Below, piece after piece: positions 3,017-15,827 of a stretch of DNA of 28,206 bases. Source of the stretch: a virus. Both the position numbers and the translations under genes were made by a program. Numbering within the stretch: the first letter of the stretch is position 1; each line of letters opens with the position of its first letter. Below the pieces are notes generated by a model. That model saw only the letters and a list, made by a program, of their open reading frames with translations. It was not told the origin of the DNA and did not search any database. Where the stretch lies: positions 1 to 28,206 of IMG/VR virus record IMGVR_UViG_3300010883_000306; one strand, 5' to 3'.

Positions 3017-3676
3017 ATGGTTAGAGATTCACAAAAATCCAAAGTATATAAGTGGGAAGGAGAAACATTTGGCAGGCAAGCAGATATGCCAGTTTGGTAT
3101 GAAGCCCAATGCGTAAAATTCATCAATGAAGCATATAAATGGTTTACTGATGGAGATAAAAACACTCCACCCGTAAAGATAAAATTTAAAAACTTTTTAA
3201 ATGCTAGAGTTACCAGTGGGTATTTTTGCCCCGATGATAATCTGATTGCCATAAATAGACGAACTGGGACAAATCCATTTGTTTGTTTACATGAATTAGC
3301 ACATTATATTGATTTTCATCAATATGCAGATAATCCATCTCATGGGGAAAGTTTCGTGGAAATTTACATTACTTTACTAATTAAATTCACGGATTTTACT
3401 AAGATAGAATTGATTGATAGTGCTGAAAAATTCGGTGTTAAATTTTCAAACTTGCGATTTCCTGACCAAGATTACATCCCACAATTAATTGATGCAGACC
3501 TCGAAAAACAAAAATATATCCATTATGCGGTTTATAGTTACGATTTAGAAAAATGGATACCAATCATTCCAAATAACATTATGAAATATCTTAATGAGGA
3601 CTATGCGGTAGTTAATCCAACTACAGGGAATTCAACTGTTTTTGGCTACGATTATGATTCGGCTTGGGGCTATTGA
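3017..3676 (+). CDS. SprT-like zinc metalloprotease domain protein
   Basis: The 219-residue product contains HELAHYIDF (residues 92-100), the zinc-binding HExxH helix, and a downstream SHGESF (108-113) that supplies the third ligand region as in SprT/WSS1-type metallopeptidases. These families cleave DNA-associated proteins in bacteria and eukaryotes; phage versions have unclear substrates. The C-terminal ~80 residues (from about DLEKQKYIHY) are rich in aromatics and lack recognised motifs. The start follows AAAGGA (3001-3006) by ten bases and an AAAAACAAAG box. It belongs to the P1 transcription unit in the early region, so degrading a host protein or handling DNA-protein complexes during takeover are reasonable guesses. 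Confidence 0.75.
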   Translation: MVRDSQKSKVYKWEGETFGRQADMPVWYEAQCVKFINEAYKWFTDGDKNTPPVKIKFKNFLNARVTSGYFCPDDNLIAINRRTGTNPFVCLHELAHYIDFHQYADNPSHGESFVEIYITLLIKFTDFTKIELIDSAEKFGVKFSNLRFPDQDYIPQLIDADLEKQKYIHYAVYSYDLEKWIPIIPNNIMKYLNEDYAVVNPTTGNSTVFGYDYDSAWGY

Positions 3677-9553: not shown

Positions 9554-9994
9554 ATGAAGAAGTTTTCAATAATGTATTTAACTGGGAAAAATAACGCAGG
9601 AGATGCTTACACCAATTTCCAATCATCGGTACTATCCGAAGAAACACAGGCAAAGATAATCGAAGAACTAAATGCCCATATTTCGGCACCACGAATGGAA
9701 GATGCTCTTGGATATGAATCACATGATGACGAAATGCCATCGGAAGATGAGCAGGAATTTTACAACATGGAAATGGAGAATCTAAAAAAAATGGATAATT
9801 ATAAAAAAATTCGTGAAGCGTTTAAAATAGTAAGTTGTTTTGCAGATATTCGCATTGGTAATGGGGAGATGGATTCTGTATTAGAAGTACATGATTTGCA
9901 CACTGCTAATACAGTACTACATGCCATACAAATCCTTGAAAGTTTTATTTTAGAAGATTTGGAAGCACTTATGGAGAATCTAAAAAACAAATAA
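9554..9994 (+). CDS. Acidic hypothetical protein (146 aa)
   Basis: The product is strongly acidic in its centre (residues 56-76, HDDEMPSEDEQEF...) and helical elsewhere, with short KKM/KKI basic patches. Small acidic early phage proteins are often DNA mimics or inhibitors of host enzymes, but nothing here identifies a target. The stop and the next start overlap (TAATGG at 9992), so it is translated together with the DNA methyltransferase; an anti-restriction role would fit that pairing and is only a suggestion. Confidence 0.6.
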   Translation: MKKFSIMYLTGKNNAGDAYTNFQSSVLSEETQAKIIEELNAHISAPRMEDALGYESHDDEMPSEDEQEFYNMEMENLKKMDNYKKIREAFKIVSCFADIRIGNGEMDSVLEVHDLHTANTVLHAIQILESFILEDLEALMENLKNK

Positions 9995-10653
9995 TGGTTA
10001 AATGCTTGACAGGAGTAGACCATCAAAAAAATCAATTTATCCTCGGGGACTGCATGGAAGTGATGTTGTCCTATCCTGACAACTATTTCGACTTGGCTAT
10101 TGTAGACCCTCCTTATGGAATATCTATTAACATGAATATGGGAAGACGGAAGGGGGCTGAGAAAGTATTTGTCGATAAAAAATGGGATGAGTCCCCTCCA
10201 TATGAAGAGTACTTTGCTGAACTTTTCAGAGTGAGTAGGAATCAGATTATTTGGGGAGGTAATTATTTTCCATTGCCCCTGACTAAGTCGTGGATATTTT
10301 GGGATAAGGATGTTCCTTTGGGGGTTAGTTTCGCTGATGGGGAATTGGCGTGGACATCATTTGATAAGACTCTTGTAAAAGCAAATCTGCCTTATTCGGG
10401 TTTCCGTGGGCTTGATGATGGGGGGAAAGTTCACCCAACTCAGAAACCAGTCGCGTTGTATAGGTGGTTATTAGAAAATTACGCAACCCGTACAGACAAA
10501 ATAATAGACACACATTTAGGGAGCGGCAGTAGTGCAATAGCGGCTCATTATTATGGGGTGGAGGAATTTGTAGGAATAGAGATAGATGAGGAATATTTTA
10601 ATTTAGCCCAAGACAGATTTATTAAAAGAACAAGGCAATTAAAGCTGTTTTAA
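9994..10653 (+). CDS. DNA adenine methyltransferase (beta-class type, orphan)
   Basis: The 219-residue product has motif IV IVDPPYG (36-42) before motif I DTHLGSGSSAIAAH (172-185), with HPTQKP (147-152, motif X-like) in between. This order defines beta-class amino-methyltransferases, and DPPY favours N6-adenine over N4-cytosine. VEEFVGIEIDEEYF (189-202) supplies the SAM-binding acidic residue. The target-recognition part lies between motifs IV and X. No restriction endonuclease gene is adjacent, so it is an orphan enzyme, probably used to evade host restriction or to mark phage DNA. It is coupled to the acidic protein gene upstream. Confidence 0.88.
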   Translation: MVKCLTGVDHQKNQFILGDCMEVMLSYPDNYFDLAIVDPPYGISINMNMGRRKGAEKVFVDKKWDESPPYEEYFAELFRVSRNQIIWGGNYFPLPLTKSWIFWDKDVPLGVSFADGELAWTSFDKTLVKANLPYSGFRGLDDGGKVHPTQKPVALYRWLLENYATRTDKIIDTHLGSGSSAIAAHYYGVEEFVGIEIDEEYFNLAQDRFIKRTRQLKLF

Positions 10654-12430: not shown

Positions 12431-12934
12431 ATGATTGAAATAAAAACAAGTGCGTATTGGAATAGAGAAGTTAAGAGCCTAGTTAATGATAATAAAGCGG
12501 TAGCGGTTGGAATTACTAGATACCCCCCTAAGTATGAATTAGGGTACGAATTATCGGGAGTTATAAAAGAATTAGCCCCTACATCAAGGCTGTTGTATTC
12601 TAACTCAGGTCAAGGACAATTTAAAAGATTGTTTTTTGAGGAGTTGAAGGTTAATTGGTCAATGGCAGAGAACAAGCTAATTGATTTGTCGGAAAGGTTT
12701 TCGGGCAAAACAATATTTTTATTATGCTATGAAAATATATTAAAATTGCCAGTTGAGGATAATTGGTGTCATAGGATAATGGTTGCTGATTTTATTAAAT
12801 CTATCCCCGACAGTTCCATGAATTACCAAATCGAGGAGTTACGGTTGAAAACATACACAAACACACTTAAAGAAATTAAGCCGCAAATAGCGGAACAGAA
12901 AACATGTAAAGACATACAATTAGGGCTTTGTTAG
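12431..12934 (+). CDS. DUF488 family protein
   Basis: The 167-residue product carries the DUF488 pattern: GITRYPPKYELGYEL (27-41), KELAPTSRLL (46-55), QFKRLFFEEL near 63-72, and the terminal signature KTIFLLCYEN...NWCHR (93-98, 97-102, 111-115). DUF488 proteins have no established reaction; the conserved Cys of LLCYE and CHR suggest a catalytic or metal site. I have the impression of similar GITxxxPKxxLGYEL proteins in phages encoded near DNA-modification genes. The stop (12932-12934) directly abuts the putative TTG start of the Mom-like fusion, implying coupled translation. A role in preparing or editing the modification is inferred. Confidence 0.8.
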   Translation: MIEIKTSAYWNREVKSLVNDNKAVAVGITRYPPKYELGYELSGVIKELAPTSRLLYSNSGQGQFKRLFFEELKVNWSMAENKLIDLSERFSGKTIFLLCYENILKLPVEDNWCHRIMVADFIKSIPDSSMNYQIEELRLKTYTNTLKEIKPQIAEQKTCKDIQLGLC

Positions 12935-14296
12935 TTGGTATTTAAGGGTTCGATACCCGCCGAGTTAAAATTTTTGATTAGTGAAATCACTGATAATTGG
13001 GACTCAGGTTTGGTTAATGTAGGGTTTTCGGGCAATTTCACAATCGAACGTGTACTGTCCCAAAAAAACAGATTTCAATTTTACGGTAATGATGTAACTA
13101 TTTTCTCGTGTGCGATTGGTAGATATTATGCGGGTCAAGATTTAAACATTTCATTACGGGATGAGTTTAGGGGGTCTTATGGTTTTATTGAGAAGCATTT
13201 AAAAACTCGTGAAGGGGCATTGGCTACCATTTTGCTTTGCTCCAAGATGCTCCAGTTTGGGCATATATCGAATAGTGAGAGTAAGTTAAAAAACAGGTAT
13301 TACGACAGATTGCAGAAAGGGTATTGTAATAATTGGGATGATTTAATATCGAAGACATCGGCTAAAATTACATCAGCAGATTTCATCCTGCAAAATTTTG
13401 AGTCGGGTGACGTTGTGGATTGGTGTGATAGTTTGCCGACGGATTCCCAATTTATTTCGTTCCCTCCTTTTTTTAGTGGGGATTATAACGAACAGTTTAA
13501 ATCTGTGGCGGATATTTTTCATTGGGATGAGCCTGATTATTCCGAATTTAATGATGAGCGTAAGGTAAAGATGATTGAGAAAGTTCAGACGTTCAGACAT
13601 TGGCTGATAGGTTCCCATATAAAGCAACCCGAATTAAAAGATAATCTGAAGGGTCTTGTAAGGGCAACTAATCGGGGTGCAAGTATTTATATTTATGGGA
13701 ATACTGATAGCGATACCAAGCTAGTATCGCCATTTCAAAAAACGGAACCTATGGGCATCCCCCCCATGATGGAATATGATGAAATTGGGGATGATGTAAA
13801 GGTATTTAAGATTACTCTTGAGCAGTTTTACGGATTACGGTCTCAATATATGAATCATAATATAGTTGTCGGGCAGGCTTCCAATGCTTGGTTAGTAGTT
13901 TCTAATAATAAAATAGTCGGGTGCTTCGCAATATTATCCGAAATGTCGCGGAGTGTCCCCGCCCTATTGCCATCACCTACCGTGTACTTACTTTCAGATT
14001 TTGCGGTAAATACTAGCCAATATAAGAAGTTGTCAAAACTGGTTTTAATTGCTTTACTCAGTAAGGAAACTAAATTAATGATGCAGGATATTTTCAGTCA
14101 ACGGATAATGAGTACAATGACTACCGCTTTTGCGGAAAATTCCACCAGTATGAAATATAGGGGGTTGTTTTCCTTATTGTCTAGGAAGGAAACAACGCGT
14201 GACCAAACGGGAAAATACCAACTCCAATACGGAGCATCTTTGGGGCAATGGGATTTAAAAGAAGGATTAGCACTGTGGAAGAAAAATTATCTTTAA
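12935..14296 (+). CDS. Fusion of D12-methyltransferase-like and Mom-like (GNAT-fold) domains; probable adenine hypermodification enzyme
   Basis: Residues 1-290 resemble D12-class adenine methyltransferases: VGFSGNFTIERVL (29-41) takes the place of motif I, GNDVTIFS (51-58) the acidic SAM-binding strand, and SFPPFFSGDY (175-184) the catalytic DPPY region. The Asp of DPPY is missing, so it may bind DNA or adenine without methylating. Residues 305-420 resemble the GNAT-like Mom of phage Mu: VGQASNAWLVV, IVGCFAIL, YLLSDFAVN (351-359), KLVLIALLSKE, TAFAENSTSMKYRGLFSLLSRK (398-419). Mom makes N6-carbamoylmethyladenine, which blocks restriction. Phage proteins of this kind are often labelled antirestriction adenine methyltransferase. 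The start is TTG directly after the DUF488 stop with a weak SD, so expression is probably controlled; a Com-like protein is encoded at 17096. Confidence 0.75.
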   Translation: MVFKGSIPAELKFLISEITDNWDSGLVNVGFSGNFTIERVLSQKNRFQFYGNDVTIFSCAIGRYYAGQDLNISLRDEFRGSYGFIEKHLKTREGALATILLCSKMLQFGHISNSESKLKNRYYDRLQKGYCNNWDDLISKTSAKITSADFILQNFESGDVVDWCDSLPTDSQFISFPPFFSGDYNEQFKSVADIFHWDEPDYSEFNDERKVKMIEKVQTFRHWLIGSHIKQPELKDNLKGLVRATNRGASIYIYGNTDSDTKLVSPFQKTEPMGIPPMMEYDEIGDDVKVFKITLEQFYGLRSQYMNHNIVVGQASNAWLVVSNNKIVGCFAILSEMSRSVPALLPSPTVYLLSDFAVNTSQYKKLSKLVLIALLSKETKLMMQDIFSQRIMSTMTTAFAENSTSMKYRGLFSLLSRKETTRDQTGKYQLQYGASLGQWDLKEGLALWKKNYL

Positions 14297-15189
14297 ATAT
14301 TAATACTAAAATCAAAACGATGAACCCTATGGATTTGAAACTACTAAAATCCAATGCCCGATATATGCGGCATGAGCAATTTCAATTACTTGTCGATAAT
14401 GTCAAAAGGGATGGGAAATTAACTAGCGTTCCGTTCGGGGCTATTAATGAGGATGGGACATACACAGTCCTTTCGGGTAATCATAGGGTGATGGCGGCTA
14501 TTGAAGCTGAACTTGATGAAATCGAAATCATGGTTACGGATGATGAATTAACAGAAAAGCAGAGGTTGGCAATACAGCTTTCCCATAATTCTATATCGGG
14601 TCAAGATGACCCCGATGTATTGAAAGAATTATATAAAAGTTTGAATGATGTTGATTGGCAAATATACTCAGGTTTAGACGATAAATCCCTAGAAATGATT
14701 GAAGCGGTGGATGCCTTGTCTTTCAGTGAATCAACCTTAAAATTCAGAACAGTAACATTATTATTTTTACCCGAAGAAATAGAAGAAGTTGAGTCCGCTT
14801 TTAAAGATGCAAAGGAATTGATTAGTACCAATTATTGGTGGCTTGCGAATATGAAACAATACGACGATTACCTAGATTTAATTAGGGGGACACAGCATTC
14901 AACGAACGTTTCTAATATAGCGACTGGGCTGATGACTATATTAGAGGTTTTTAAAAAGAATGTTGCACAGTTATCCGACGAATGGATGCCCGAAGAAAAT
15001 TTCAGCCCATCTAAAACCGTGCCTTTAATCTCCATATTCGGGAATGATACTATACCATCAGAATTAGGTAGACGGTTAAACAAGGTTACTGATTCAATGG
15101 TAAGTAAGGGATTGATAGAACCTTTCCAAAGGCATATGGCTCTTGATGTTATGATATGGTCATGGGAAGAACTTAATAAGCGGGGGTAA
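14275..15189 (+). CDS. ParB/sulfiredoxin-fold domain protein
   Basis: Residues (counted from the GTG at 14275) include SNARYMRHEQFQLLVDNVKRDG (26-47) and TVLSGNHRVMAAIEA (64-78), the ParB N-terminal fold with its GxHR motif. This superfamily includes CTP-dependent partition proteins, sulfiredoxins and nucleases. The C-terminal 180 residues are helical and unknown. GTG 14275 is chosen because AAGGA lies eight bases upstream; an ATG at 14248 has only a distant GGAG. The gene overlaps the Mom-like gene by 22 bases, and its last codons form the 5' acceptor strand of the downstream tRNA. The linkage suggests a role in the modification process, such as ATP/CTP-dependent DNA tracking; this is inference. 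Confidence 0.78.
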   Translation: MEEKLSLNINTKIKTMNPMDLKLLKSNARYMRHEQFQLLVDNVKRDGKLTSVPFGAINEDGTYTVLSGNHRVMAAIEAELDEIEIMVTDDELTEKQRLAIQLSHNSISGQDDPDVLKELYKSLNDVDWQIYSGLDDKSLEMIEAVDALSFSESTLKFRTVTLLFLPEEIEEVESAFKDAKELISTNYWWLANMKQYDDYLDLIRGTQHSTNVSNIATGLMTILEVFKKNVAQLSDEWMPEENFSPSKTVPLISIFGNDTIPSELGRRLNKVTDSMVSKGLIEPFQRHMALDVMIWSWEELNKRG

Positions 15190-15255
15190 CTCAGCATGCA
15201 GAGTGCTTGGATACCATCCAAGAAGTCGCGGGTGCGAATCCTGCCCCCCGCTCCA
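15180..15255 (+). tRNA. tRNA-Gly(ACC) with an altered elbow; candidate non-translational glycine carrier
   Basis: A complete cloverleaf is readable. The acceptor stem is GCGGGGG/CCCCCGC (7 perfect pairs), the D stem ACTC/GAGT, the anticodon stem CTTGG/CCAAG with loop ATACCAT (anticodon ACC), the variable loop AAGTC, and the T stem GCGGG/CCTGC with one G-U; U73 and CCA are encoded. U8, A14, G15-C48, G19-C56, U33, A37 and A58 are conserved. Bacterial GlyRS identity elements G1-C72, C2-G71, G3-C70, C35, C36 and U73 are all kept. Oddities: the D loop is AGCATGCA, so G18 is U; the T loop is TGCGAAT, so U55 is G; base 10 is A; and A34 is rare for bacterial Gly tRNAs. Its 5' end overlaps the ParB-like stop codon. 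Either a GGU-decoding tRNA or a glycine donor for the adjacent Mom-like enzyme. Confidence 0.88.
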
Positions 15256-15272: not shown

Positions 15273-15827
15273 ATGTTACAGCAAACGGGAATAGAATCGT
15301 GGACACGTCAGCCCAACGAAAGCCCTCCCGCATTCCAAGCCTTTGTAGTATATCGAGATTTAGGACTGGGAATGAGAAGTAATGCAAAGGTTTCACGGGA
15401 GTTAGGTAAATCCGTTACTTTAATGAATCGTTGGTCTAGTCGTTGGGATTGGGTTAAGAGAGTTGCACGTTACGATGAAGAAATTGATAAGCAAATAAGA
15501 GAACGGCATATTAAAGAATTGTATGAAGCAAGGGATAGACATGCTAACCTGTCGCGACTTTTGCAGACGAAATTCCTAGAAAGGTTAAGGGATTTATCAG
15601 TTCAAGATATCCCAGTTGTGGCATTAGCCAATATTTTAAAGGTGGCTACGGATGTCGAGTTAAGAGCATTGGGTGAGGCTACGATAAAAACAGAGCAAGA
15701 AATTACTGGTGCGGATGGCGGGGCGTTTAGGATTTCAATCGATGAATTAGCAAAGTTAGCGGAACAAAATGGTTATATTGAACAAGACCCCACAGGAAAC
15801 AGTCTTACAGAGTTTGCAGAATCCTAG
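15273..15827 (+). CDS. terS: Terminase small subunit-like protein
   Basis: The product (184 residues from the ATG at 15273) begins with a phage terminase small subunit pattern: ESPPAFQAFVVYRDLGLGMRS (about residues 16-36), then ELGKSVTLMNRWSSRWDWVKRVARYD, a helix-turn-helix suited to binding the packaging site, then a long helix and an acidic tail. Small subunits recognise the DNA and regulate the large subunit ATPase and nuclease. An open frame with a TTG start at 15207 lies inside the tRNA and is rejected. The SD is weak (GGGG). It overlaps the terminase large subunit gene by 59 bases. Confidence 0.78.
   Translation: MLQQTGIESWTRQPNESPPAFQAFVVYRDLGLGMRSNAKVSRELGKSVTLMNRWSSRWDWVKRVARYDEEIDKQIRERHIKELYEARDRHANLSRLLQTKFLERLRDLSVQDIPVVALANILKVATDVELRALGEATIKTEQEITGADGGAFRISIDELAKLAEQNGYIEQDPTGNSLTEFAES

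Follow-up and report, generated by a model that had tools for sequence, protein, structure and literature searches.

Recurrent linkage of a glycine tRNA-like RNA to phage Dam-like/GNAT fusion genes and one branch of Mom genes suggests a glycyl-tRNA donor for DNA modification

There is strong support for a recurrent association of tRNA-Gly, to the exclusion of tRNAs for other amino acids, with phage genes for a Dam-like/GNAT fusion protein and with one branch of true Mom genes. Dozens of unrelated phages carry this tRNA beside a DNA-modifying gene, which suggests that their DNA may be decorated with glycine derived from tRNA. We consider it likely that these phages supply a largely non-translational glycyl-tRNA as the donor for a Mom-type adenine modification. 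Such a scheme had been proposed in a sequence-only reading of one viral DNA; the tRNA-Gly linkage, the preserved GlyRS identity and the erosion of the tRNA elbow speak for it, but the fixed pair of changes at positions 18 and 55 that it included does not hold.

The window, meaning the whole stretch of DNA analysed, comprises 28,206 bases of virus sequence (IMG/VR record IMGVR_UViG_3300010883_000306, positions 1-28,206). It contains a cassette consisting of a tRNA-Gly, a Dam-like/GNAT fusion and a ParB-like protein, with the following features:

12431-12934, + strand: DUF488-N3 rhodanese-like protein, 167 aa (PF22751, E 2.8e-6)
12935-14296, + strand: Dam-like/GNAT fusion protein, 453 aa (Pfam, AF2 model, structure comparison)
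14248-15189, + strand: ParB/sulfiredoxin-like protein, 313 aa (phrog_7405, E 1.9e-70; ParB_N, E 4e-4)
15180-15255, + strand: tRNA-Gly(ACC)-like RNA with encoded CCA (ARAGORN, Rfam RF00005, covariance model R1, fold)

The tRNA-like RNA and its cassette

ARAGORN places a tRNA-Gly(acc) at exactly 15180-15255 on the + strand, the sole tRNA in the 28,206-base window, and Rfam RF00005 matches it with 53 bits (gathering 29, E 6.7e-9). The covariance model R1 gives 62.9 bits, a score to be read with the window RNA itself among the 57 sequences from which R1 was built. The cloverleaf is the minimum-free-energy fold, with a z of -3.0 against shuffles, and the complete tRNA with CCA proposed earlier is thereby confirmed. 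As read from the sequence, the acceptor stem is GCGGGGG/CCCCCGC, followed by U73 and an encoded CCA; the anticodon loop AUACCAU holds U33 and A34 C35 C36; the D loop AGCAUGCA holds U18 and G19; and the T loop UGCGAAU holds G55 and C56. The RNA matches the tRNA covariance model and has an NCC glycine anticodon (ACC), as a bacterial tRNA-Gly does, and its GlyRS identity set is complete (G1-C72, C2-G71, G3-C70, U73, C35, C36), bearing out what the sequence-only reading had stated; the acceptor end and U73 are, moreover, invariant in the 57 aligned sequences. The elongator feature U33 is retained, while the elongator-type G18-U55 elbow contact is absent. The window RNA thus combines altered D- and T-loop residues with kept GlyRS identity, in the manner of the non-proteinogenic, cell-wall type of staphylococcal tRNA-Gly. 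Its first 10 bases coincide with the 3' end of the ParB-like gene (14248-15189); the next gene is that of the terminase small subunit, with its ATG at 15273.

The two elbow changes reported earlier, G18 to U and U55 to G, are both present in the window, but their description as a swapped pair did not survive comparison, since relatives with G55 mostly carry A or C at position 18. A conserved U-G swap at 18/55 was rejected on this ground, and the change is better described as loss of the G18-Psi55 contact. The anticodon ACC, also singled out earlier, is present in the window but is one of three anticodons among the relatives, of which TCC is the commonest.

The fusion protein carries both Phage DAM-GNAT domains in order: residues 3-276 match the Dam-like family PF22555 and residues 286-451 the GNAT-phage-like family PF22559 (Pfam E 2.1e-67 and 3.3e-46). 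The AF2 model of the whole protein has a pLDDT of 92.5, and the GNAT domain model one of 94. The Dam-like domain has the Dam fold, with E. coli Dam as its nearest structure (2g1p, Z 14.2, 194 aligned). The catalytic DPPY is absent; the window protein has FPPF, and the relatives shown have FPPF, YPPF, FPPT or FLPT. This replacement means that the target base of the Dam-like domain is not certain, and adenine is suggested by kinship to Dam and Mom.

The C-terminal domain had been called Mom-like, a description that holds only in part. Its sole Pfam match is PF22559, and the Mom profile PF25680 does not match it; a weak profile-profile similarity to Mom exists nonetheless (probability 63%, E 6.9e-5 and 54 columns against nine Mom proteins). 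In structural comparison Mu Mom comes first (8bv8, Z 11.3, rmsd 3.5, 143 aligned), with a lead over other GNATs of at most 1 Z, which amounts to a tie. FemX/FemA are not among the structural matches listed, which does not exclude similarity, and a PDB sequence search returned chance matches only. The acetyl-CoA pyrophosphate loop Q/R-x-x-G-x-G/A is missing from the domain, which has YxRLxKL instead, with an invariant Lys; Asp355, Thr396 and Lys407-Tyr408-Arg409 are also invariant across relatives.

Two further observations concern the neighbourhood of the fusion. Its GNAT domain (window 13772-14293) also matches the C-terminal part of phrog_2443, annotated as an amidoligase enzyme, in which the same transferase is possibly fused to an ATP-dependent ligase that would replace the tRNA as activator; using only the GNAT domain as a tblastn query against annotated phages gave no further amidoligase-fused relatives. 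About 2 kb before the cassette, at window 9994-10653, lies a separate N6/N4 DNA methyltransferase gene (PF01555).

Linkage of tRNA-Gly to fusion and Mom genes

By tblastn, the fusion occurs in 13 annotated phage records, all from Gordonia or Mycobacterium phages; at the DNA level, the cassette region has no relatives among annotated phages. Scanning viral contigs with the window fusion as a single protein gave no matches, and an alignment of four fusion proteins was needed, which yielded 70 viral contigs and 49 loci in bacterial genomes. In Mycobacterium phage Jeon, an annotated tRNA-Gly(tcc) lies immediately 5' of the fusion. Gordonia phages Soos and Clawz carry an unannotated, degenerate tRNA-like RNA at the equivalent position, with the acceptor GCGCGAC/GTCGCGC, U73, CCA, an NCC anticodon loop and a T loop without TTC. 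At E <= 1, Rfam overlooked the tRNA-like RNAs of these three annotated phages, and R1 detected them. Within the published genomes, the Soos and Clawz RNAs lie at L002:5821-5894 and L004:5823-5896 and are unannotated; in Jeon the tRNA (L003:5896-5967) is overlapped by the annotated fusion start (5950), and the real start codon probably lies 3' of that position.

Across the fusion loci, ARAGORN finds a same-strand tRNA-Gly just 5' of the fusion in about half, and every assignable tRNA that it reports beside the fusion is Gly, with no other amino acid represented; this leaves out a tRNA-Thr predicted in L066/L067 as well as further non-Gly tRNAs from host flanks. R1, built from 57 RNAs including that of the window and giving only rough E-values, added the degenerate copies, and a motif scan with inspection added a few more. 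In total, a tRNA-Gly-like RNA accompanies the fusion in 89 of 122 loci, usually 7-360 nt upstream. Because the loci are related by descent and are not independent events, they were also counted as clusters at 70% protein identity: 27 of 45 clusters have a linked RNA, which in 24 of the 27 lies within 400 nt upstream. One locus (L017) has a tandem pair of copies 5' of a single fusion gene, at 3245-3314 and 3335-3405.

In the remaining 18 of 45 clusters a linked tRNA-like RNA was not found, and loci L006, L033, L039, L041, L075 and L081 yielded none even with filters off; a phage tRNA is therefore not obligatory. The earlier expectation of an adjacent Gly tRNA in fusion genomes is thus largely borne out by the 89 loci, but the accompanying 18/55 changes are not fixed. 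When the fusion loci were scanned with a loose motif, 84 matches lay more than 400 nt away; a few of these are true displaced copies and most are chance matches in GC-rich DNA, and for this reason all claims rest on the strict scan and R1 only.

The remaining parts of the cassette differ in constancy. In 112 of 122 loci the fusion is followed by the ParB-like gene; a DUF488-N3 homologue is present in 31 of 122 and is thus an optional part. The RNA itself changes place: the window copy lies 3' of ParB, the L062 copy downstream of the fusion and the L087 copy on the other strand, and in L020, L118, L040 and L114 (the last a weak match) it is 1.7-6 kb from the fusion. This variation in position and strand indicates that the RNA acts in trans.

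The same linkage recurs independently in one branch of Mom. In Microbacterium phage Appa, whose protein matches Pfam Mom PF25680, a tRNA-Gly(ccc) adjoins the Mom gene on the opposite strand. Among 80 viral relatives of the Appa/Martha type that were fetched, ARAGORN reports seven tRNAs, each of them a tRNA-Gly no more than 40 nt from the Mom gene, and R1 finds copies at or beside the Mom gene 3' end in about half, the weaker ones with E up to 0.5. The strict motif, scanned on both strands, occurs 21 times within 200 nt of the gene and nowhere else in 491 kb. All ten Mom proteins checked match PF25680, and 22 of 26 distinct Mom-linked RNAs are without at least one translational feature. Two other Mom branches, from staphylococcal and Polaribacter phages (117 loci), served together with two additional relatives as a control for generality: a tRNA-Gly adjoins none of their Mom genes, and in 672 kb the strict motif occurs once, far from the gene and within a tRNA array. 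Nor is there a tRNA-Gly near Mom in Mu or in seven further Mom phages. Two contigs of the Appa/Martha type deserve separate mention: a 51,027-base contig carries an R1 copy at L163:4598-4668, where Arthrobacter phage Martha has no tRNA annotated at the matching place, and a 2,277-base contig has the same tRNA-like RNA at both ends (L161:19-89 and 2175-2245), which probably reflects a terminal repeat in the assembly.

What the linked RNAs keep and lose

Bacterial GlyRS recognises its tRNA by the acceptor end, U73 and C35-C36, and these are the elements that the linked RNAs keep. In the 57-sequence alignment G1-C72, C2-G71, G3-C70 and U73 do not vary, and the remaining stem pairs show compensatory changes, giving a covariation score of 0.656 against 0.157 for shuffled and 0.05-0.13 for slid versions, so that the covariance check proposed earlier comes out in favour of a conserved fold. 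Among 79 distinct RNAs, C35-C36 is present in 75, with the loop chosen by stem pairing alone. The acceptor end GCG/CGC and U73 are kept among the same 79, a figure that is partly circular, as R1 and the motif scan favour this end; the ARAGORN set was not chosen by it.

The features associated with decoding are much less constant. U33 is present in 53 of the 79 and absent from 26, D-loop GG is found in 45, and the T loop has TTC in 47 and TGC, as in the window, in 18. Only 17 RNAs combine U33, GG and TTC, and at least one is missing in 62, whereas all three occur in 18/18 distinct ordinary tRNA-Gly sequences from seven host genomes. G55 associates with loss of the D-loop GG (15/19 against 14/47; Fisher p 4e-4, relatedness uncorrected). 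The deltaproteobacterial copies, 64-66 nt long, go furthest: their loops are UGACCAG, CGACCAG or GGUCCAC, without U33, and their anticodon stems are mostly 7-8 bp; judged by these features, RNAs of this type cannot be expected to decode. The retention of GlyRS identity while decoding and elbow features erode fits a glycine-charged tRNA kept from the ribosome. Some of the RNAs may still translate, given the 17 fully canonical copies and the U33 of the window.

A similarly altered elbow is seen in chromosomal tRNA-Gly(TCC) of Streptomyces, with the T loop TGCAAGG or TGCAATC. Three odd copies, counted apart from the 18 ordinary host sequences (L334:1498-1570, - strand; L339:1501-1572, + strand; L340:1501-1571, + strand) sit among genes that are not phage-like in appearance. 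Of 61 Streptomyces genomes sampled, 26 contain matches, at most five per genome and many of them near-identical; the best-matching copies, when compared, share about 74 nt and have different flanks, as if the tRNA alone had dispersed. They might serve cell-wall glycine supply, or be mobile.

A glycyl-tRNA donor and the competing explanations

In the mechanism that we favour, host GlyRS would charge the phage RNA with glycine, and the odd elbow or anticodon arm would prevent its use by EF-Tu and the ribosome. The GNAT domain, lacking the usual acetyl-CoA loop, would accept glycyl-tRNA in place of acyl-CoA; the Dam-like domain would bind or flip out an adenine onto which the GNAT domain moves the glycyl group, and the ParB-like protein may act in a further step. 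N6-carbamoylmethyl-adenine, the modified base of Mu, equals adenine plus a glycyl residue in mass and is an isomer of N6-glycyl-adenine. On chemical reasoning only, glycine could be placed on N6, after which its amine would attack C6 and the old N6 would be released as the amide nitrogen, a rearrangement that would give exactly N6-carbamoylmethyl-adenine. Mom may use the same donor, in which case Mu and the tRNA-less Mom branches would draw on host glycyl-tRNA. We lean slightly towards this broader proposal, according to which Mom-type modification, including that of Mu, takes its glycyl group from glycyl-tRNA and several lineages evolved or captured a stripped-down tRNA-Gly, sometimes one without decoding ability, solely for the purpose.

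Known systems resemble parts of this scheme. GNAT-fold enzymes that use aminoacyl-tRNA include the FemX family and leucyl/phenylalanyl transferase, and FemX/FemA/FemB of staphylococci are GNAT-fold transferases fed by an elbow-altered glycyl-tRNA kept off the ribosome; their acceptor is a peptidoglycan precursor, whereas the acceptor proposed here is DNA. Mom of phage Mu (PF25680), responsible for N6-carbamoylmethylation of DNA adenine, shares the GNAT fold and the role in phage DNA modification, and in one Mom branch the gene is likewise linked to a tRNA-Gly; the window protein differs in its PF22559 domain, Dam-like fusion and ParB partner, and Mu has no such tRNA. The donor proposed for Mom in a 2021 paper is an acylated CoA, for instance glycyl-CoA (PMC7824862), not glycyl-tRNA. 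In cyanophage S-B43, CmoX/CmoY form a 5-carboxymethylcytosine-glycine amide by means of an ATP-dependent ligase (PMC12783734, 2025). There too phage enzymes place a glycine-derived group on a DNA base, but the ligase joins glycine to a carboxymethyl handle on cytosine, without a tRNA.

Four other explanations were weighed. A translational helper, in which the phage tRNA-Gly reads the phage's own glycine codons and its linkage is incidental, would be in keeping with the frequency of tRNAs in phages, with the U33 and proper anticodon loop of the window copy, with the 17 of 79 RNAs that hold U33, GG and TTC, and with the 98 uses of GGU in the 14 window genes counted. Yet the window uses GGA and GGG more often than GGU, Gly is the only amino acid to recur at this position across many lineages, at least one near-universal translational feature is missing in 62 of the 79 distinct RNAs and 22 of the 26 linked to Mom, and the deltaproteobacterial copies combine loss of U33 with an extended anticodon stem, which makes this reading very unlikely. 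Still less probable, and the least so of the four, is a cis-acting leader, a tRNA-like switch or processing signal controlling fusion expression. In most fusion loci the RNA does lie just 5' of the fusion on the same strand, sometimes overlapping the annotated start as in Jeon, but a leader would have no need of GlyRS identity bases or CCA, and it was rejected because position and strand differ between loci: the RNA follows ParB in the window and the gene itself in Mom loci and L062, is on the opposite strand in Appa and L087, and is 1.7-6 kb distant in others.

The other two explanations draw on TacT-type GNAT toxins, which acetylate glycyl-tRNA (PMC9241777), so that a GNAT fold meets glycyl-tRNA there as well; in the scheme proposed here glycyl-tRNA is the donor. 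Like these enzymes, the GNAT domain of the fusion could modify tRNA or its glycine instead of DNA, as an enzyme or toxin for which the linked tRNA is substrate or antidote. This is about as improbable as the translational helper, given that the domain is fused to a Dam fold and has lost the acetyl-CoA loop, that a ParB partner accompanies it in 112 of 122 loci, and that such an RNA also accompanies Mom, a family known to modify DNA. The RNA could also be a decoy or spare against host defences on tRNA-Gly, such as anticodon nucleases or the same toxins, within an anti-defence island that includes the modification genes; altered anticodon arms could confer nuclease resistance. Marginally less credible than the preceding reading, a decoy leaves the linkage to two different GNAT DNA-modification families unexplained, and acceptor ends predicted to be GlyRS-competent on non-decoding RNAs fit a carrier better.

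Glycyl-tRNA as donor would have consequences beyond these phages. Known acceptors of aminoacyl-tRNA are protein ends, lipids, peptidoglycan and natural products, and we know of no case in which aminoacyl-tRNA donates to DNA; literature linking tRNA to Mom or DNA modification was likewise not found in a search that covered few subscription journals and no preprints, so that priority is not certain. If true, the mechanism would be the first aminoacyl-tRNA-dependent DNA modification. The linked RNAs would also offer many naturally occurring minimal substrates of GlyRS, as predicted from their identity bases, and the conserved presence of an often decoding-deficient tRNA-Gly beside Mom-family genes provides a named, testable donor candidate, for which cultured phages exist.
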